Shown here piece by piece: positions 13,594 through 24,961 of a stretch of 24,961 nucleotides of DNA. The DNA lies in IMG/VR virus record IMGVR_UViG_3300032309_001721, positions 1 to 24,961 of that record; one strand, written 5' to 3'. Source of the DNA: a virus. The position numbers were made by a program, and so were the translations under genes. Within the stretch, counting starts at the first letter, position 1, and each line of letters starts with the position of its first letter. The notes below the pieces were generated by a model. The model was given only the letters and a program-made list of their open reading frames with translations. It had not been told where the DNA came from and did no database searches.

Positions 13594-13872
13594 GTGTCTC
13601 GTGGACCATGGGAATTTGAAGAACCGTTATGCGCAGAAGTTGGTGTAGAGATATTTTATACTGATGATAAAGATGAAAAGAAAATTGATTCAATGAGTAC
13701 ATATGCTATGGCAAGCTCCATATGCAAACAATGTCCTCATAAAGCCGAGTGCGCTGACTGGGCTATTAGAAATGAACTGTTTGGTTTTTGGGGAGGACTA
13801 AGCCCTAAAGAAAGAACTAATATAAGAAAGCATAAAAGAATTTCTGTAAATATAGATCTAAAACAAATCTAG
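13594..13872 (+). CDS. whiB: WhiB-family transcriptional regulator (Fe-S)
   Basis: 92 aa, GTG start at 13594 after AAAGGAG. The four invariant WhiB cysteines are Cys13, Cys44, Cys47 and Cys53 (C...C-x2-C-x5-C), which bind a 4Fe-4S cluster. They are followed by the G-F-W-G-G turn (64-68) and a basic tail (PKERTNIRKHKR). The length is normal. WhiB proteins bind the host primary sigma factor; phage copies such as that of mycobacteriophage TM4 can interfere with host WhiB action and superinfection. It marks the host as actinobacterial. A second, larger WhiB lies at 14630. Confidence 0.93.
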   Translation: MSRGPWEFEEPLCAEVGVEIFYTDDKDEKKIDSMSTYAMASSICKQCPHKAECADWAIRNELFGFWGGLSPKERTNIRKHKRISVNIDLKQI

Positions 13873-14629: not shown

Positions 14630-15154
14630 ATGTGGAAACCAGCAGAAAGCCTCAGATGGCAGAGTGAAGCCTTATGCGCCAAACCATCAAATAAAAAATA
14701 TTTAGACTGGTTTTTCTCTAAAGATTTTTCTGAAAAGTATGATGCTAAAAATTTATGTTTCTCATGTCCCGTAAGAAAAGATTGTTTACAGTGGGCTCTA
14801 GAGCACAGACAAATTTGGGGAATATGGGGAGGCAAAGATGAAATTGAAATTCGCAGGACTCTTTCAGTTTCATATCTTGGAGAAGAGACTCGACGCCGTA
14901 GATATCCCAACTGTCCATTTTGTACCGCAAGACCTGGCAAACTAGAAACATCTATAGAGAAACTATCAACAACTGGAAGATGGACTACAGCAAAGATTGT
15001 TACTTGTACCGAGTGTGGTTTTGCTTGGAGAAGTAGAACTAGCGCCAACGCAGTAGAGGCATACAAGGCTGAAAAAATCGATAAAGCAGCCAAGTTAGAG
15101 AAGAAAAAAGAGAAACTGAAGAAGAAAAACAAGCGTAAAAAAGCAGTTTCATAG
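14630..15154 (+). CDS. whiB: WhiB-family protein fused to a C-terminal zinc ribbon and basic tail
   Basis: 174 aa, about twice the usual WhiB length. WhiB cysteines are Cys16, Cys43, Cys46 and Cys52, followed by WGIWGG (63-68) and basic residues (88-91). A second domain has Cys95-x2-Cys98 (CPFC) and Cys126-x2-Cys129 (CTEC), a typical zinc ribbon. Residues about 146-171 are a Lys-rich, possibly coiled, strongly positive tail able to contact nucleic acid. No Shine-Dalgarno is present, and a -10 box lies 7 nt upstream. Likely a regulator of host or phage transcription; the extra domains suggest DNA or RNA contact beyond sigma-factor binding. Opposite-strand frames here are shadows. Confidence 0.88.
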   Translation: MWKPAESLRWQSEALCAKPSNKKYLDWFFSKDFSEKYDAKNLCFSCPVRKDCLQWALEHRQIWGIWGGKDEIEIRRTLSVSYLGEETRRRRYPNCPFCTARPGKLETSIEKLSTTGRWTTAKIVTCTECGFAWRSRTSANAVEAYKAEKIDKAAKLEKKKEKLKKKNKRKKAVS

Positions 15155-15159
15155 CCTAC

Positions 15160-15188
15160 TTGCTATTTGCCAGCCTACCTACTAGTAT
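15160..15188 (+). promoter_or_regulatory. Candidate sigma70-type promoter for the secreted protein gene
   Basis: TTGCTA (15160-15165) and TAGTAT (15183-15188) are separated by exactly 17 nt, each matching 4 of 6 consensus bases. The start site would be near 15195, giving a leader of about 27 nt with AGGAGA before ATG 15223. Confidence 0.45.
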
Positions 15189-15222
15189 TGCCTCTCAAGA
15201 GACAAAATGACTAGGAGAAAAC

Positions 15223-16365
15223 ATGTTAAAGAATAAAGTACGTATATTAGGTTTAGCCGCAGCGCTAACACTTATTGCAAGCCCAGCTTTTGCTGGATGG
15301 ACAACTGATACAGATGCGCAAAGCACGGTATCTCGAATGAAAGCCGAAGATTTACTTCAAACTAGAGCAGATGGTTACTTTGCAATCACGTTAGAAGCAA
15401 TTACATCAACACCTCAGATGTCAGGTCAGACATCAGCCCCGACTGCTAAAGCAAAGTATGCAGTTATTGTGGACGGTGTTGTTGATAAAATTGTTACTTG
15501 GGATGGTTACTCACCAAACCGTGTAATAGATTCATATGGAATTATTGTAAAACTTCCTGCCAATGCTGGAGTTAAGTATGTTGATTCAAATGGTGTAACT
15601 AGGCTTAAGCCAATAACTCAAGGCTCAATTGTTTCAGTCTATGTAGCACCTGATGTAAAGGTAACTCCTACATATGAAATAACTCAACTCTCTCCAGTCA
15701 CACTCCCAACAGAGCCAACTGATCCTGCTGTGGCACAAGCAAACTCACCTGTAGTTACAACTCAGGTACTTAATGCGGATAACTCAGTATCCATGACTGT
15801 TGATGTTGCTGGTATTCAAGACCTGCCATCTACCTCAGTTGTTTCTGTTTACACAGTTACAGATGGTCGCTCAACTACCTCAGTCGGACTTGCACAAGGC
15901 TCAAACACAGTGACTATTAACAATCTTCCACAGGATCAAAACGTCACAGTGAAAACAGTTATTCGCGACACTTTGACAAATACTGAAACTGTAATATCAA
16001 ACCCTGTAGTTGCAACTGTTGCTTCAACTGCGCCAGCACCAACTCCATCCAGAAGTGACACCACAGATAGAGCAACTATCACTGCTCCATCTATCGCTTC
16101 TCGAGTTGTAGATGCCTCAGGTGCCCTGTCTGTGGCTATTGCAATGCCTGCAGTTCCAAACTTTGACTCAAGTAAATCTTGGGCAACTCTTATTGTCCGT
16201 GATAATAAATCTGGCTCAACTACAGCAATTGGAACAGATGGAACAGCCCAGACTCTAAATGTTGGCTCCCTTGGCGCAGGACGTGATTACACCGTGTCAG
16301 TTGTAGTTCGTGATCTTGCTACAGGACAAGAAACAGTAATTAAAGGTGAGGGTATATCTAAGTAA
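15223..16365 (+). CDS. Secreted protein with signal peptide and two beta-sandwich-like repeats
   Basis: 380 aa, with an AGGAGA Shine-Dalgarno before ATG 15223. Residues 1-24 form a classic Sec signal peptide: basic start (KNKVR), hydrophobic core (ILGLAAALTLIAS) and AFA before Gly25. Residues about 77-110 contain YAVIVDGVVDKIVTWDG, a pattern also seen in phage virion proteins. Two related beta domains, about 175-262 and 286-373, each end in a '(V/I)RD.....ETVI' strand and resemble fibronectin-III or Big-type folds. A Pro/Thr linker (268-277) joins them. It is flanked by its own promoter and terminator. A secreted or surface protein made during infection is likely; what it does is unknown. Confidence 0.85.
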   Translation: MLKNKVRILGLAAALTLIASPAFAGWTTDTDAQSTVSRMKAEDLLQTRADGYFAITLEAITSTPQMSGQTSAPTAKAKYAVIVDGVVDKIVTWDGYSPNRVIDSYGIIVKLPANAGVKYVDSNGVTRLKPITQGSIVSVYVAPDVKVTPTYEITQLSPVTLPTEPTDPAVAQANSPVVTTQVLNADNSVSMTVDVAGIQDLPSTSVVSVYTVTDGRSTTSVGLAQGSNTVTINNLPQDQNVTVKTVIRDTLTNTETVISNPVVATVASTAPAPTPSRSDTTDRATITAPSIASRVVDASGALSVAIAMPAVPNFDSSKSWATLIVRDNKSGSTTAIGTDGTAQTLNVGSLGAGRDYTVSVVVRDLATGQETVIKGEGISK

Positions 16366-16375
16366 TACAACATCT

Positions 16376-16414
16376 AAAGTAGGGATCACTTGTAGAGAGT
16401 GATCCCTATTTTTT
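16376..16414 (+). terminator. Rho-independent terminator after the secreted protein gene
   Basis: AGGGATCACT (16381-16390) pairs perfectly with AGTGATCCCT (16398-16407) around a 7-nt loop. The stem can extend outward through T-A, G-T and A-T pairs, and a run of six T follows at 16409-16414. It ends the 15223 transcript and insulates it from the sugar locus. Confidence 0.88.
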
Positions 16415-16439: not shown

Positions 16440-17120
16440 ATGACTCGCTCAGTTATTTTAGTTCCATCTAGAACTCGACCTAAAAGGTTTGTTAGAGCAG
16501 TGGAATCTCTAAGATATCACTCAACTGTTTCAGACATAGTCGCTTGCTTAGATGAAGATGATCACGCTTTATATCCGAGGATGCAAGGTGTTAAGTATGA
16601 GATAGGACCTAAACCAGAGCAGCTGGGTGTTAATGAGAAACTAAATCGCATGGCAAATAAGTATATGGATGAGTATGACTACATTCTTTGGGCAGCCGAT
16701 GATACGACTGTTATGACACCTAAGTGGGATGAAAACCTTATTAATGCAATAAAAAAAGTGCCTATGGGCATCTCATACCCAGATGATTTAGCCCAAAGTG
16801 CTCGTCTGCCTAGCAATGGAACTTGTTTTGATTCAAATATTGTAAAGACGCTTGGATACCTAGCCCCTCCTGAGTTATTACATCTATATATAGATAATTT
16901 TTGGAAACTACTGGGAGATGCTATGCAGACTCTTAGATACTGCCCTGAAGTTATTTTAGAACATCACCACTACGCAGTACGTAAAGCACCTGTTGATGAT
17001 CTTTACTCTGCGATAAACTCTCCTTGGATGTATGAGCGAGATAGGAATGCTTTGGCTAGATATAAGATGAAAAGTTTCCAGAGTGATATTACAAAACTAA
17101 AAAAGGCAATTAATAAATGA
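16440..17120 (+). CDS. GT-A-like glycosyltransferase
   Basis: 226 aa. The N-terminal strand SVILVPSRTRPKRFVRAVESL and the CLDEDD segment (36-41) resemble the nucleotide-sugar part of a GT-A fold. YILWAADDTT (Asp87, Asp88) is the likely metal-binding DxD equivalent. LYIDNFWKLLGDA (Asp152) and EHHHYA (His175-177) match acceptor and catalytic regions of phage and bacterial GT2-like enzymes. The gene has no Shine-Dalgarno and is probably leaderless. Its stop overlaps the epimerase start (ATGA). It probably transfers a sugar in the same pathway as the epimerase; the acceptor is unknown. Confidence 0.75.
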   Translation: MTRSVILVPSRTRPKRFVRAVESLRYHSTVSDIVACLDEDDHALYPRMQGVKYEIGPKPEQLGVNEKLNRMANKYMDEYDYILWAADDTTVMTPKWDENLINAIKKVPMGISYPDDLAQSARLPSNGTCFDSNIVKTLGYLAPPELLHLYIDNFWKLLGDAMQTLRYCPEVILEHHHYAVRKAPVDDLYSAINSPWMYERDRNALARYKMKSFQSDITKLKKAINK

Positions 17121-20029: not shown

Positions 20030-20226
20030 CCATTTCTGGCATATCTATCCTTTAATGGTAAAAGTGTGTCTTATTCTTATTAAATCTTTGGTCTGACCAG
20101 TAAAAGTACGATTTAACTTTATGTTTATACACAGGTTTTCTTGATTTTATATGACGCAAAACGCGAGGTAGTATTTTTCTGCCTACTCTCTTATATGAAG
20201 AGCAGGAAGACTTAGTCTGACGCACC
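20030..20226. other. Non-coding stretch between sugar locus and fibre locus
   Basis: This AT-rich stretch holds no open frame above about 20 codons with a ribosome site and no tRNA-like T-arm. A short CTCTT/AAGAG hairpin around 20187-20201 is the only other structure seen. It separates the end of the fibre operon from the promoter of the minus-strand sugar genes. Confidence 0.5.
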
Positions 20227-20274
20227 TAAAACAAAGGAGGCCGCAGTTACCAGTATTGGCACTACAACCTCCTT
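20227..20274 (-). terminator. Rho-independent terminator of the minus-strand fibre operon
   Basis: Read on minus, AAGGAGG (20274-20268) pairs with CCTCCTT (20240-20234). An inner AGT-GCCA/TGGT-A-ACT hairpin shares the loop, and TGTTTTAGG follows. It lies 13 nt after the stop of the last fibre-locus gene. Confidence 0.7.
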
Positions 20275-20286
20275 ATAATTACTTAA

Positions 20287-20523
20287 TTAAATTACTAGTA
20301 CAGCCGCTTCTGCCTCTGTTAAAGGAGTTCCTGCGATTAACTTTGCTCTAGCAGATGCTTTTAATGCTGCTGTTGCAGCCTCTGCCTCTTCGCGCTCAGC
20401 CTGTGCAATTGCATACGCTGCTGCATCTTGATCACGTTGTGCGATCTCTGCTGCTGTCAACGGAATAATTTGTGTTTCTCCTGTTGAGCAATCTACTACT
20501 ACCTTTGTTGGTGCTTCAGACAT
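20287..20523 (-). CDS. Small Ala/Glu-rich helical protein, putative tail-fibre assembly chaperone
   Basis: 78 aa, with AGAGGT about 10 nt before the ATG. The N-terminus VVVDCSTGETQIIPLT is beta-like. Residues about 25-60 are an Ala/Glu/Gln helix and the end reads ARAKLIAGTPLTEAEAAVL. The same plan (short strand region, Ala-rich helix, K/L...LT/GIT-E-E...LL end) occurs in the genes at 20950 and 21814. Such small proteins next to fibre genes are often assembly chaperones. The role is inferred from plan and position. Confidence 0.7.
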   Translation of the reverse strand: MSEAPTKVVVDCSTGETQIIPLTAAEIAQRDQDAAAYAIAQAEREEAEAATAALKASARAKLIAGTPLTEAEAAVLVI

Positions 20524-20525
20524 GT

Positions 20526-20894
20526 TTATGCTACCTCTATCCAGTTAGTTGTTTCTTCATCCCAACGATACATCTTGTCATCGGTTGGCATTGCAACGGG
20601 AGCTTCCCAATTACATGTTGCTTCATCTAATACCCATGAAGCGTAAGGCTTTGGCGCAATGAACGCGTCTTTTACGGCGTCAAATGTGTAGCCAATTCCT
20701 GCATAATTCTTGCGATATGGTGTTCCACCTAAAGCGTGAACTCCACCTTGTGTGTTGTAGGAGGTCTTCTTCCAAGTTCCACCTAGACCTAGGTCATCGG
20801 CTAGATACTCTTGACCCCGACCCTCTTGAGCATCTGGAACAACAAGTACACGTACTACTGTATTGCTCTCATCTATCTCGGCAAAATGTGCCAT
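20526..20894 (-). CDS. MAHFA-type virion-associated protein, longer copy
   Basis: 122 aa, AAGGAG before ATG 20894. It begins MAHFAEIDESNTVVRVLVV and contains WKKTSYNTQ, YRKNYAGIGYTFD and APKPYASWVLD...NWEAP, a pattern well known from small tailed-phage structural proteins in aquatic phages. The 22744-22998 gene is a shorter paralogue that stops before the PKP..SWVLD end. It has its own strong promoter upstream. Role in the tail not known. Confidence 0.78.
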   Translation of the reverse strand: MAHFAEIDESNTVVRVLVVPDAQEGRGQEYLADDLGLGGTWKKTSYNTQGGVHALGGTPYRKNYAGIGYTFDAVKDAFIAPKPYASWVLDEATCNWEAPVAMPTDDKMYRWDEETTNWIEVA

Positions 20895-20921
20895 ATATTT
20901 TTCTCCTTGTTTATAGTAGTA

Positions 20922-20930
20922 ATTATACCA
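20922..20930 (-). promoter_or_regulatory. Extended -10 promoter within the fibre locus
   Basis: On minus the sequence is TGG-TATAAT, a perfect extended -10 element, in the 55-nt gap between the 20950 and 20526 genes. The start site near 20915 would leave a leader of about 20 nt containing AAGGAG. No good -35, as usual for extended -10 promoters. It would let the last two genes be expressed apart from the fibre operon. Confidence 0.6.
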
Positions 20931-20949
20931 CGCCTGACCTTACTGCTCC

Positions 20950-21159
20950 TTAAGAAAGTAAAAGTCTCGCTTGCTCTTCTGTAATACCCAACTGTGCTAG
21001 CAGGGCTGCTTTAGCTGTTGCCTTTGCTTCGACTTCGGCTTGTGCAGTTGCTCTCGCTGCTTGGTCTGCCTCATACGCTGCAAACTCTTGGTCATTCATT
21101 TGTCTGTCAATAACCTCATTAGTTTCAAGGTCGTGAATTCTTACCATTGGTCTTGTCAT
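20950..21159 (-). CDS. Small MTRPMVRIHDL protein, putative fibre chaperone, copy 2
   Basis: 69 aa. The Shine-Dalgarno GGAGT lies inside the end of the upstream fibre gene. It reads MTRPMVRIHDLETNEVIDRQMND, then an Ala/Glu/Gln helix (25-55) and QLGITEEQARLLL. It is a clear paralogue of the 21814-22029 gene, and the first bases plus leader are almost identical between the two. Each copy follows a fibre gene with a shared N-terminal block. Assembly chaperone is inferred. Confidence 0.75.
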   Translation of the reverse strand: MTRPMVRIHDLETNEVIDRQMNDQEFAAYEADQAARATAQAEVEAKATAKAALLAQLGITEEQARLLLS

Positions 21160-21160
21160 A

Positions 21161-21814
21161 TTAGTTTACTCCATATACGTAGGCTGTACCACCAGTGAAA
21201 GCAACATCTCCTAAAATACTTATTGAAGTTATTGCGGCTGAACAATCATATGTAAAAATAACATATTGTGTTTGTAAATTACCAGTTCCAGGATAAAAAG
21301 AAGTTGAACTAATATTACCAAAAACTGCATCTGTATTTGTATATCTGTAAATATTAATAACGCTTCTTATATCTTTTGTAGGATTACCACTGTTATTTAC
21401 GGTGTGGTCCATTAAACTTACTTTAGTTTGATTCCAAGCATTATTGGGGTTATATCTAGCCAATGCTCCAAAAGAATAATTACTTCCAGAATCTCCATTT
21501 AATCTAATAAATGTATCCTGGTCTGAACTTGTTAAATAAGCATTTTCAATAAGTATTTGCAAATGTTTATATGATTGACTTATACTAGAAATAGTGGTTG
21601 TAGTTCCTGATAAAGCGGTAGTTGATAATAAAGTTAAACTACCAGCAGCAGGAGTAGCCCACTTTAATCCAGTAGTCTCAGCGCTGTCGGCAGTAAGGAC
21701 TGTATTATTAGCACCAACCGCAAGAACACCTGAGTCATTAGTGGCATTACCTACAACTAGGTCTCCCTTGGCTGCTGGTGCAACTGCATTACTTGAGGCC
21801 TTAGTTATAGCCAT
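21161..21814 (-). CDS. Modular tail-fibre protein, copy 2
   Basis: 217 aa, with GGAGG upstream and a TAATG overlap with the previous gene. Residues about 16-90 carry the fibre block AKGDLVVGNA...LAVGANNTVLTADS...TGLKWATP...TLLSTTALSGTTTTI, then a Tyr-Lys-x-Leu-Gln strand, shared with the 22031 gene. The distal half differs, and the chain ends in YVYGVN. A conserved shaft with a variable tip is typical of receptor-binding fibres. It pairs with the small gene at 20950. Confidence 0.8.
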   Translation of the reverse strand: MAITKASSNAVAPAAKGDLVVGNATNDSGVLAVGANNTVLTADSAETTGLKWATPAAGSLTLLSTTALSGTTTTISSISQSYKHLQILIENAYLTSSDQDTFIRLNGDSGSNYSFGALARYNPNNAWNQTKVSLMDHTVNNSGNPTKDIRSVINIYRYTNTDAVFGNISSTSFYPGTGNLQTQYVIFTYDCSAAITSISILGDVAFTGGTAYVYGVN

Positions 21815-22029
21815 TAGTTACCTCCTAGTAGTAGTTGTGCTTCCTCGGCTGTAATGCCAAGTTTAGTTAATAGGGCCTGACGAGCAGATTCTTTTGCTGC
21901 AAGTTCTGCTTGAACAACTTGTCGCGCTGTTTGCTCTGCTTGATAGGCAACATATTCAGTATCATTCATTTCGCGATCAATGACTTCTTCTGTTGCTAAG
22001 TCGTGGATTCTTACCATTGGTTTTGTCAT
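21814..22029 (-). CDS. Small MTKPMVRIHDL protein, putative fibre chaperone, copy 1
   Basis: 71 aa, with GGAGT as Shine-Dalgarno in the end of the upstream fibre gene. It reads MTKPMVRIHDLATEEVIDREMND, then an Ala/Gln helix and KLGITAEEAQLLL. It is a paralogue of the 20950-21159 gene. Its stop overlaps the next fibre gene's ATG (TAATG). Position between two fibre genes and helical build suggest a fibre-specific assembly chaperone; not proven. Confidence 0.75.
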   Translation of the reverse strand: MTKPMVRIHDLATEEVIDREMNDTEYVAYQAEQTARQVVQAELAAKESARQALLTKLGITAEEAQLLLGGN

Positions 22030-22030
22030 A

Positions 22031-22744
22031 TTAGTTTACTCCGTAAATTAGACAAGTTCCTGCTGTCATTGAAACACCAGAATTAATTGTTAATGATGAA
22101 ATTACTGTTCCTGTTGTATAACCACCAATTACAAATCCTCTTTGGTCACCCGAAGCAAATGTTGGCAATAAATATGTTTGTCTAGCAATTTTGTAGCGAC
22201 TAGAAGCATAATCAAAAATTTCTAATATAAACACATTTTTAACGCCATTTATATTACTACCAGCCGTGCAACCAAATGCGTCCGTTGCATTTCCAGAACC
22301 CAAAGTGCTTCCCGTTACTCTTATTGAAGTAAGAGTGTCTGGTGAGATGTTATTTGGTTTAATATCAATTAGAGAATTTGAAGCAGTAGTTATATCAGAA
22401 ATAACAATTTGCAAATTTTTGTAAGTGGATGGAATTCCTGTGATTGTTGTAGTAGTTCCCGATAATGTAGTGGTACTAATTAAAGTCATACCACCGCTTG
22501 AAGGTGTAGCCCATTTAAGTCCTGTGGCTGTAGTTGAGTCTGCAGTAAGAACCGTGTCGTTAGCACCAACGGCTAATCTAGTAACAGTATCAGCAGCAGT
22601 TGCTGCAATTAGATCACCCTTAGCATCTACAATAGTTGTAGCAATCTCATTATGGCTGTGTGTACCAGTACCTATCGGATACCAAACAGCATCTGCTGAG
22701 TCGTAAACATAACCTGGTCTAGGGGTGTTGCTGATCGTGGCCAT
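22031..22744 (-). CDS. Modular tail-fibre protein, copy 1
   Basis: 237 aa, GAAGGA upstream and a TAATG overlap with the 22744-22998 gene. Residues about 12-40 (YVYDSADAVWYPIGTGTHSHNEI) form an extra N-terminal module, absent from copy 2. Residues about 42-117 carry the shared AKGDL...LAVGAN.TVLTADS..TGLKWATP...LSGTTTTI block. The distal half is unlike that of copy 2, and the end CLIYGVN matches it again. Most likely a host-recognition fibre. Confidence 0.8.
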   Translation of the reverse strand: MATISNTPRPGYVYDSADAVWYPIGTGTHSHNEIATTIVDAKGDLIAATAADTVTRLAVGANDTVLTADSTTATGLKWATPSSGGMTLISTTTLSGTTTTITGIPSTYKNLQIVISDITTASNSLIDIKPNNISPDTLTSIRVTGSTLGSGNATDAFGCTAGSNINGVKNVFILEIFDYASSRYKIARQTYLLPTFASGDQRGFVIGGYTTGTVISSLTINSGVSMTAGTCLIYGVN

Positions 22745-22998
22745 TAGCTTCCTTCACCTATGCTAGATGTAAATATATCATTTAATTCATCGTATACCAT
22801 TCCTGAGCCAGCATATGAACCTCTAAAATTTGCATTATATGAAGTCTGTAACCATTCAGTATCAGCGCCATATAATGATTTACAAAATGCAATACCAATT
22901 GCTTCTGATTCTGGGAATGGTTTATTTTCTAGTACCTCGTTATTAATTACAATAACTTCTCTAACAACATTATTTTCTACTCTTGCAAAATGTGCCAT
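22744..22998 (-). CDS. MAHFA-type virion-associated protein, shorter copy
   Basis: 84 aa from ATG 22998; a TTG at 23007 would add three residues overlapping the glycine-rich gene and is less likely. It reads MAHFARVENNVVREVIVI, then GIAFCKSLYG, WLQTSYNANFRGSYAGSGMVYDELNDIF, typical of the aquatic-phage MAHFA family. It is a paralogue of the 20526-20894 gene but ends right after the YD..NDIF part. It starts 1 nt after the glycine-rich gene's stop. Confidence 0.78.
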   Translation of the reverse strand: MAHFARVENNVVREVIVINNEVLENKPFPESEAIGIAFCKSLYGADTEWLQTSYNANFRGSYAGSGMVYDELNDIFTSSIGEGS

Positions 22999-22999
22999 T

Positions 23000-23824
23000 T
23001 TATCCAATCACCACGATCACAATACCTGAACCACCAGAGCCAGAACCGTAAGATTCATCTGCGCCCGCTCCGCCACCGCCAGTGTTAGCAGTACCAGAAG
23101 TTCCAGCGCTTCCAAGATTTGAACCACCACCGCCTCCTAAGCCACCACTAGTAGTGTAACCACCACCTGAACCACCACCGCCTGCATAATAAGTTGATGT
23201 ACCAGTAATTGAATTTGCTAACCCTATTCCACCGCCAGAACCACTACCGCCTGCGGCACCTGCACCGCCACCGCCACCTGCTTGTAAAGATCCATTACCA
23301 CTTCCACCATTATTACCTTGCCCATCAACACTACCTCCTCCGCTTCCTAGTCTGTCACCACCACCACCAGAAGCACCCCTAACACCACCAACAAGTAATT
23401 GGGATGCACCAAATTGTGCACGACCCCCACCAGCGCCGCCGCCAAAAGCAAAAATATTATCAAGTCTTGATGTTGTTCCTAGTGCAGAACCTACAAGTTG
23501 AGAAAAAGCAGCATTAGATGCATAGCCACTACCACCAGCACCAACAGTAACAGTTAATGTTCCAGCAGATAAAAATTGAGTAGCGTTATAGACGTAACCA
23601 CCCGCTCCGCCGCCACCACCACGGTCAAATCCACCCGCGCCGCCACCGCCAACTACTAAAATTTCTGCAGTACCACCGCTACCAATAGTAATAGTTCCTG
23701 AACCAGTAAATGAATAAATAGTTTTACCAGCACGAGTTGCTGAATCAATAGTAGGAGAACCAGTAGTAGCAGTTACTGTTGCCTTACCAATTCCACCTGC
23801 AGATACGGGGCTAAATAATGGCAT
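23000..23824 (-). CDS. Glycine-rich tail adhesin
   Basis: 274 aa, AAGGAGA before ATG 23824. Residues 1-58 form a short beta domain (IYSFTGSGTITIGSGGTAEILVV). Residues about 59-268 are extremely Gly-rich, with runs of 4-5 Gly broken by Ala, Ser and short aromatic or charged loops, ending in IVIVVIG. This build is like phage glycine-rich domain proteins and the polyglycine-II sandwich of T-even-type gp38 adhesins, where the loops at the tips bind the receptor. It is flanked by fibre genes. Adhesin role inferred. Confidence 0.82.
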   Translation of the reverse strand: MPLFSPVSAGGIGKATVTATTGSPTIDSATRAGKTIYSFTGSGTITIGSGGTAEILVVGGGGAGGFDRGGGGGAGGYVYNATQFLSAGTLTVTVGAGGSGYASNAAFSQLVGSALGTTSRLDNIFAFGGGAGGGRAQFGASQLLVGGVRGASGGGGDRLGSGGGSVDGQGNNGGSGNGSLQAGGGGGAGAAGGSGSGGGIGLANSITGTSTYYAGGGGSGGGYTTSGGLGGGGGSNLGSAGTSGTANTGGGGAGADESYGSGSGGSGIVIVVIG

Positions 23825-23833
23825 TGTTTCTCC

Positions 23834-24961
23834 TTATGCGTATTTAATCGGACCAGCACCAAATACGGTGTATGTCGGAGTCGCTGCTGTTTTGATAATT
23901 GTATATGTGTATACATCAATTGAAGATGCGTTACCAGATGCGGGCGCAGTTCCACCTGAATACTTAGGTGTTACAGCAGATCCATCAATATTAAATGCTG
24001 TCTGATAGTAAGCCGTGCTTCCATTTGTTACTAGAAAAGACACAGTGACTGAATCACCAACTGATAATTTAGAAGCAAGTGTTGTTGAACTTGAGCCTCT
24101 AATATTTAATGTCCAGTTGGCTGTAGCGTTAGATGTGTAATAAAGAACTCCTTGAGTGTCAGCATCAAAGTTAACAGTAGTTGCAGCAGCCGTAGCTGAT
24201 ACAGTTGTACGCTCCTCTGGTGAAATAAGAACTGGAGTTGCAATTTTTGTGTCTACCTGAGCCTGAGTATAAACATCTGCTACAGCAAGTACTGCGCTAG
24301 CAAAGACTTCAATAATATCGCCCGTAAGAGTTGCATCAATTAAGGTGATAGATGTGCCATTTGTTGCCGTGTAGTCATTACCACGAGATAATAAGGTACC
24401 GTTTCGATAAACCTGCTCATAACCTACTGTGTAGGATAAAGTTGTTGATCCATCATCGACTCCAGTTAAAGCAGTTGTACCAGCAGTAGGAGCCTTTGAC
24501 CAGCGAACCATTTGTTGACCAACTACTGCTCCATCTGTGTCTACCCAGATAAGTCCGTCTACTGGATCTGCTGGTTCAGTAGTTTGTGCAAATGCCATTC
24601 CTGTTGGGCCAGTAGGTCCAGTTGCACCAGTAGCACCACTCGCTCCTGTTGCTCCTGTTGGACCAGTAGATCCAGTAGCACCTGTGGAACCAGTAGCTCC
24701 TGTTGGTCCAAGTTGTGTATACATAACTTGAGAGGCTGTAAGAATAACGCTAGGAATTGCTGGTCGAGTAGGGCTTGTTCCTGCAACATCTGCAATTAAC
24801 TCTAACCTTGTATCAGATGTACGCCATACCAATTCAATATAATCGTTGGCTGCAATCTCTAACATATAGTTCCAAGCAGCAATTGTTTTGGCTGCTGCTG
24901 CACCACCTGAAACAGTTATAACACCATTGCTATCTGGAACGTCAGTTCCATTCTTACGGAA
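23834..24961 (-). CDS. Tail-fibre protein with collagen-like repeat, 5'-truncated
   Basis: The frame is open to the window's last base, so the gene starts beyond 24961; the ATG at 24865 is internal (fragment residue 33) and the 32 residues before it are in frame. 375 residues are visible. An N-terminal virion beta domain (AANDYIELVWRTSD) is followed by 12 Gly-x-y triplets (fragment residues 85-120; DNA 24602-24709), a phage collagen-like stalk. Next come EPADPVDGLIWVDTDG and a long Thr/Ser-rich beta domain. It is followed by the glycine-rich gene with a 9-nt gap. A trimeric fibre is likely. Confidence 0.85.
   Translation of the reverse strand, partial: FRKNGTDVPDSNGVITVSGGAAAAKTIAAWNYMLEIAANDYIELVWRTSDTRLELIADVAGTSPTRPAIPSVILTASQVMYTQLGPTGATGSTGATGSTGPTGATGASGATGATGPTGPTGMAFAQTTEPADPVDGLIWVDTDGAVVGQQMVRWSKAPTAGTTALTGVDDGSTTLSYTVGYEQVYRNGTLLSRGNDYTATNGTSITLIDATLTGDIIEVFASAVLAVADVYTQAQVDTKIATPVLISPEERTTVSATAAATTVNFDADTQGVLYYTSNATANWTLNIRGSSSTTLASKLSVGDSVTVSFLVTNGSTAYYQTAFNIDGSAVTPKYSGGTAPASGNASSIDVYTYTIIKTAATPTYTVFGAGPIKYA
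24602..24709 (-). repeat. Collagen-like Gly-x-y coding repeat
   Basis: Twelve consecutive triplets of type GPT/GAT/GST/GAS in the fibre gene, encoded by nearly repeating 9-nt units. Phage collagen-like segments form trimeric stalks and vary in length by slippage or recombination. Confidence 0.9.

Follow-up and report, generated by a model that had tools for sequence, protein, structure and literature searches.

The window analyzed here, a virus record of 24,961 bases with a GC content of 39.6%, contains an ORF of 380 aa (positions 15223–16365, + strand) flanked upstream by a WhiB gene (14630–15154; Pfam Whib, E 1.3e-16) and downstream by a glycosyltransferase gene (16440–17120; phrog_14945, E 3.8e-40). 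This confirms the arrangement described in an earlier note on this DNA, which had placed a gene for a secreted protein between WhiB and sugar genes. The ORF is preceded by a ribosome binding site, AGGAG (15213–15217, + strand), assigned by sequence and invariant in 9/9 aligned leaders. Besides the WhiB gene at 14630–15154, the window carries another, separate one (13594–13872), both lying within 1.6 kb, and a reverse-strand fibre region (20052–24865) that is largely swapped between phages mostly 95–99% identical upstream.

The hosts of this phage group appear to be actinobacteria, since WhiB is encoded and the portal protein matches those of DSL-LC01 (78%) and Microbacterium phage Pumpernickel (64%); DSL-LC01 is described as a metagenome assembly whose own host is a prediction (PMC10611076). 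Genome contigs were also scanned for a host with the neighbouring epimerase, and no match was confirmed. The carriers form a lake-water group of large actinobacteriophages, about 130 kb in size, and are probably phages of abundant, mostly uncultured lake actinobacteria.

The predicted exported product and its relatives

Relatives of the encoded protein were identified on 32 IMG/VR contigs (17, 5, 5 and 5 in successive scans); three of the last five (L226, L227 and L228) carry pieces truncated at a contig end. The sequences fall into three groups: A (the window, L002–L013 and L016), with full copies 91–95% identical and the cut copy L016 89%; B (L014, L015 and L017–L023), with an identity of 47–71%; and C (L129–L133 and L224–L227), where identity is about 41–44% for whole sequences and about 50% in the last domain. 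A 28-residue fragment, L228, was left outside these groups.

Searches of 50,697 phage records, made with the window protein and with a group C copy, and of 72,556 plasmids yielded no relative; such searches may not cover the records closest to the window. Pfam, PHROGs and NCBIfam gave no family match above their cut-offs, and a PDB sequence search with the family gave 0 matches. A pattern-based scan of genome contigs for cellular relatives matched 105 stretches, none of which was confirmed; it relied on exact short peptides, which distant cellular relatives could escape. The earlier note had allowed for homologues that were all tail proteins; no PHROG family, tail or other, was matched by the window protein or by the L132 copy, although a tail protein may lack such a match. 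Judged from these comparisons, the predicted exported protein represents a previously unnamed family, and literature searches listed no paper on a comparable secreted phage FN3 protein.

The window protein starts with MLKNKVRILGLAAALTLIASPAFA, followed by GW, and the predicted signal peptide (15223–15294, + strand) would be cleaved between AFA and GW. The same layout, in which K/R precedes a hydrophobic core and the core is followed by a small-x-Ala site and (x)W, was recognized heuristically in 30/30 sequences: that of the window, those of 28 full-length loci and a further one truncated at a contig end. By the same heuristic, the features of a type I signal peptide (positive n-region, hydrophobic core and A-x-A site) are present in all 30. 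The letters of the signal peptide vary between groups while its layout is constant, and it is retained in all 28 full-length copies despite identity down to about 42%. The assignment, which combines the heuristic with this conservation, bears out the A-F-A signal peptide proposed in the earlier note and lends good support to the description of the protein as secreted. On these features, the product is very probably exported.

The mature proteins of the full-length copies have a predicted mass of 35.3–42.7 kDa and a pI of 4.15–4.78, the window product being acidic and of about 37 kDa. Cysteine is absent from them, apart from a single residue in the L013 copy. No LPxTG motif was found among the family sequences examined, and there is no cysteine at the cleavage site that could form a lipobox. 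In the mature proteins, hydrophobicity over 19 residues peaks at no more than 1.53, except in L018 (2.02), so no obvious anchor is apparent. The exported protein gene is under strong purifying selection, with a whole-gene dN/dS of 0.08–0.14 in eight comparisons within group A.

It was stated in the earlier note that phage genomes seldom carry exported proteins. This does not fit the present group, which encodes several other signal-peptide proteins: in the long relatives G006 (C1:2970–3890 and C1:103426–106104) and G009 (C1:28944–30005, 52426–54138 and 72492–73217) and in L132 (390–1523). They include a protease-family protein (phrog_3677), one with a GmrSD_C/HNH nuclease match and another, of 892 aa, that matches fn3 and PT-repeat families weakly; the rest are unassigned. 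In addition, a 69-aa ORF of G006 (C1:124011–124220) has a lipobox-like LLSACG start and may encode a phage lipoprotein.

The mature protein comprises an N-terminal region (15295–15717, + strand), in which alignment revealed conservation peaks at YAVIVDGVVDKIVTWDG and GVKYVD, followed by two predicted FN3/Ig-like beta domains. The first of these (15736–16020, + strand; residues 172–266) was modelled with a pLDDT of 62–83 in 10-residue blocks, and the second (16090–16356, + strand; residues 290–378), which gave FN3 matches, with 81–92. Alignment of residues 171–275 with residues 276–380 gave a score of 107, compared to 35±6.5 for shuffled sequences (0/1000 as high), and an HMM of the first repeat matched the second repeat of the window protein (E 2.4e-09). 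These results bear out the two related beta domains of the earlier note.

A first structure model, built from 6 sequences, had a pLDDT of 58, and a model of the mature protein built from 14 sequences had a pLDDT of 69 and a pTM of 0.41. The confident parts are the two C-terminal beta domains, the pLDDT of the N-terminal region being low in both models. Foldseek and VIA-align grouped the predicted C-terminal domains with FN3 tandems. The first domain alone could be superposed on part of a beta-glucuronidase (6mvh_B) with an rmsd of 2.0 over 89 residues; the high rmsd over both domains is due to inter-domain placement. The best viral structural matches include FN3-bearing phage proteins, several of them named minor tail proteins. 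Such a shared, predicted FN3-like fold does not point to a function, and the likeness is one of fold only, the window protein giving no match to Pfam fn3 (PF00041) above the curated cut-off. Two other candidates were rejected: Pfam PepSY_2 (E 0.1) was under its cut-off, and kinship of the N-terminal region with small YA-type proteins of the tail-fibre region was given no support by HMM.

A leader–gene–terminator unit present or absent as a whole

The gene is followed by an intrinsic terminator (16376–16412, + strand) composed of a 16-pair stem and a T-run. A terminator-consensus scan found 2 such sites, compared to 2.1 expected by chance, and so proves nothing by itself. The strong terminator claimed earlier was instead borne out by comparison with relatives, in which 127/127 cells of the stem are paired and two pairs are changed on both sides; the covariation score was reached by 5/500 shuffles. 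No obvious stem was seen after the stop codon of the group B copy in L017.

The leader contains the promoter-like pair TTGCTA-17-TAGTAT (15160–15188, + strand). Both hexamers are invariant in 9/9 aligned leaders, with an 8-nt variable stretch in the middle of the spacer. Of the elements named in the earlier note, the sigma70-like promoter is the least well supported: two blocks are conserved across a variable spacer, but the match to the consensus is poor (8/12) and lies below the 9/12 listing threshold of the scan. The leader, with its two invariant blocks within the insert, is best described as a promoter-like candidate. In the 133-kb relative G006, the complete TTGCTA-TAGTAT motif is present at a single place; the next best site scored 17/25, compared to 18–19 for the best shuffles, and a general phage promoter class was accordingly rejected. 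No promoter consensus could be settled for group B and C leaders.

In three relatives, L146, L147 and L148, the site is empty: whiB is followed by the glycosyltransferase gene, about 124 bases after the WhiB match. The flanking genes of these relatives are closely similar to those of the window (WhiB 95%, glycosyltransferase 92% and epimerase 97% identical). As shown by blastn, homology with the window breaks at the whiB stop (15153) and resumes inside the terminator T-run (16410), with 22 unrelated bases between. The missing unit (15155–16409, + strand; about 1,255 bp, with boundaries good to a few bases, the right one lying somewhere within the T-run) therefore holds the leader, the gene and nearly all of the terminator. 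Among 80 WhiB loci, the gene lies directly after whiB in 13, while 3 are empty with the glycosyltransferase next; a further 3 have too short a flank, and 61, whose right flank was covered up to 4.5 kb, contain neither the gene nor that glycosyltransferase.

The leader, gene and terminator thus come or go as one unit, which gives good support to the insulated, moron-like layout proposed earlier, and the anatomy is very likely that of a moron-type cassette. Its GC content (42.5%) is only slightly off that of same-size stretches (39.5±2.4%). Elsewhere in the sugar-gene stretch, the group of L008 carries an additional gene (208 aa; L008:12851–13477) between the epimerase gene and a reverse-strand glycosyltransferase gene, and in L148, too, additional DNA lies there, downstream of the epimerase gene, suggesting that this stretch may accept more cargo.

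Genomic setting in the wider phage group

A 133-kb relative from group A (G006) and a 136-kb one from group B (G009) have largely collinear structural and replication genes, but carry the exported protein gene at different places. In groups B and C it is convergent to genes whose products start with MPILG, MPIIG or MTILG, or to their small companions; one of these lies at most two genes downstream in 12/12 B and C loci with gene lists. The long collagen-like genes of this region gave strong matches to tail-fibre PHROGs. The MPILG-like genes matched only phrog_2295 (function unassigned) or, weakly, Pfam fn3, and are taken as fibre genes from their position.

A small serine recombinase gene lies amid the MPILG-like and collagen-like fibre genes, which occur in both orientations, in L014, L017–L021, L023 and L129–L132; the same fibre region of G006 also encodes one (C1:106187–106837), and the L034 copy matches the DNA invertase families phrog_95 and phrog_125. 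This combination suggests an invertible tail-fibre locus.

The exported protein gene is absent from 26/29 related records, four of them 117–135 kb in length, though records may be incomplete; it is therefore dispensable. The 29 records share a related major tail protein and were drawn from 80 kept of 510 relatives, mostly long contigs, so that 3/29 is no unbiased frequency. No tyrosine integrase was found in 5/5 records, which makes a role in lysogenic conversion unlikely.

Proposed function and comparison with known systems

The most economical reading of these results is an accessory exported protein that acts outside the infected cell. There is strong reason to expect that the host Sec pathway would export the product, with cleavage after AFA, and that the mature protein, consisting of the N-terminal region and the two FN3-like domains, would then be released in a soluble or wall-associated form. 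During infection it may attach to the outer face of the cell that makes it, with a surface polymer or the phage receptor as its binding partner. Once bound, it could reduce re-adsorption of the same or related phages, by superinfection exclusion or receptor masking. Superinfection exclusion, surface masking and host-cell aggregation, the possibilities raised in the earlier note, are all compatible with these findings.

This is the likeliest function by analogy, although taken by itself it is rated less probable than not. It is preferred because of the tail-fibre neighbourhood of the gene in groups B and C and its WhiB and glycosyltransferase neighbourhood in group A; WhiB and glycosyltransferases are named as possible means against superinfection in a paper on phages of freshwater actinobacteria (PMC10202952). 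The strong purifying selection and the FN3-like folds, which are frequent in adhesive extracellular proteins, also speak for it. Against it, FN3-like domains such as those modelled here are also common in virion tail proteins, a soluble, anchorless protein would need a ligand to remain on the cell, and the gene is dispensable. The explanation as a whole, a moron-type cassette encoding an exported protein that controls re-adsorption, is the best available and is proposed tentatively, at somewhat less than even confidence. A bolder extension, in which a secreted receptor-masking or exclusion family travels on mobile insulated cassettes, lies in related phages beside switchable tail-fibre arrays, and lets exclusion and receptor choice co-evolve in abundant freshwater actinophages, is unlikely.

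Alternatively, the product might be an exported adhesin or surface coat not aimed at phages, which makes infected cells stick together or to particles, or alters the behaviour of the wall, and so raises the odds of progeny meeting new hosts. The tandem FN3-like architecture agrees with such a role, as do the Thr-Pro-rich insert of the L018 copy (such stretches being typical of extracellular linkers) and the other signal-peptide proteins of the same phages, one of which has the weak fn3 and PT-repeat matches. However, no known adhesin domain was recognized by sequence and the benefit to a phage soon lysing its host is not obvious; this explanation is less probable than not by a wide measure.

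It is improbable that the protein is instead virion-associated, serving as an accessory of the tail or fibre, with an N-terminal hydrophobic segment that is no true signal peptide. The position of the B and C copies among tail-fibre-region genes and the FN3-bearing minor tail proteins among the viral structural matches would suit it, but the signal-peptide layout is kept in 30/30 sequences despite their divergence and the gene, missing in 26/29 relatives, has its own leader and terminator. Moreover, it lies outside the structural block in the window group, and in groups B and C on the strand opposite to the genes just downstream. Least probable is an envelope-located modulator of lysis or the wall, shielding against host or phage wall enzymes or tuning lysis timing: the predicted export, the strong conservation, and the endolysin and signal-peptide protease of the group are compatible with it, but no wall-binding or catalytic domain was found and the gene lies at least 8 kb from the endolysin gene in G006 and G009.

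The cassette and its product can be set beside several known systems. Morons of tailed phages are single genes with their own promoter and terminator and a differing base composition, expressed independently of the lytic programme. The cassette resembles them in being a single gene with a promoter-like leader and a terminator, which close relatives with a collinear site lack; it differs in showing no sign of prophage expression, in its only slightly deviating GC content and in occupying a second site in related phages. With the FN3/Ig-like domains of phage tail proteins its product shares a predicted fold, but its own domains come after a signal peptide and are not matched in sequence by Pfam fn3.

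Two further systems can be likened by their descriptions only. CwpV of C. difficile is described as an exported cell-surface protein that can protect against phage (PMC4737114), but it is bacterial and phase-variable. Phage T5 is described as a lytic phage that uses an exported protein, Llp, for receptor-level superinfection exclusion; Llp itself is a small lipoprotein of the outer membrane that targets FhuA from the periplasmic side (PMC9586334). The cassette product would likewise be a phage-encoded exported protein, possibly acting in receptor-level superinfection exclusion, but it is a 37-kDa non-lipoprotein of phages with presumed monoderm hosts. If it does exclude competitors, it would represent secreted, non-lipoprotein exclusion in phages of such hosts, and the clean present/absent pair for one exported gene allows its effect to be framed as one testable difference. 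As a kind, then, the cassette is an ordinary one of the moron type, while the protein that it encodes belongs to a new family, missing from all the family libraries searched.
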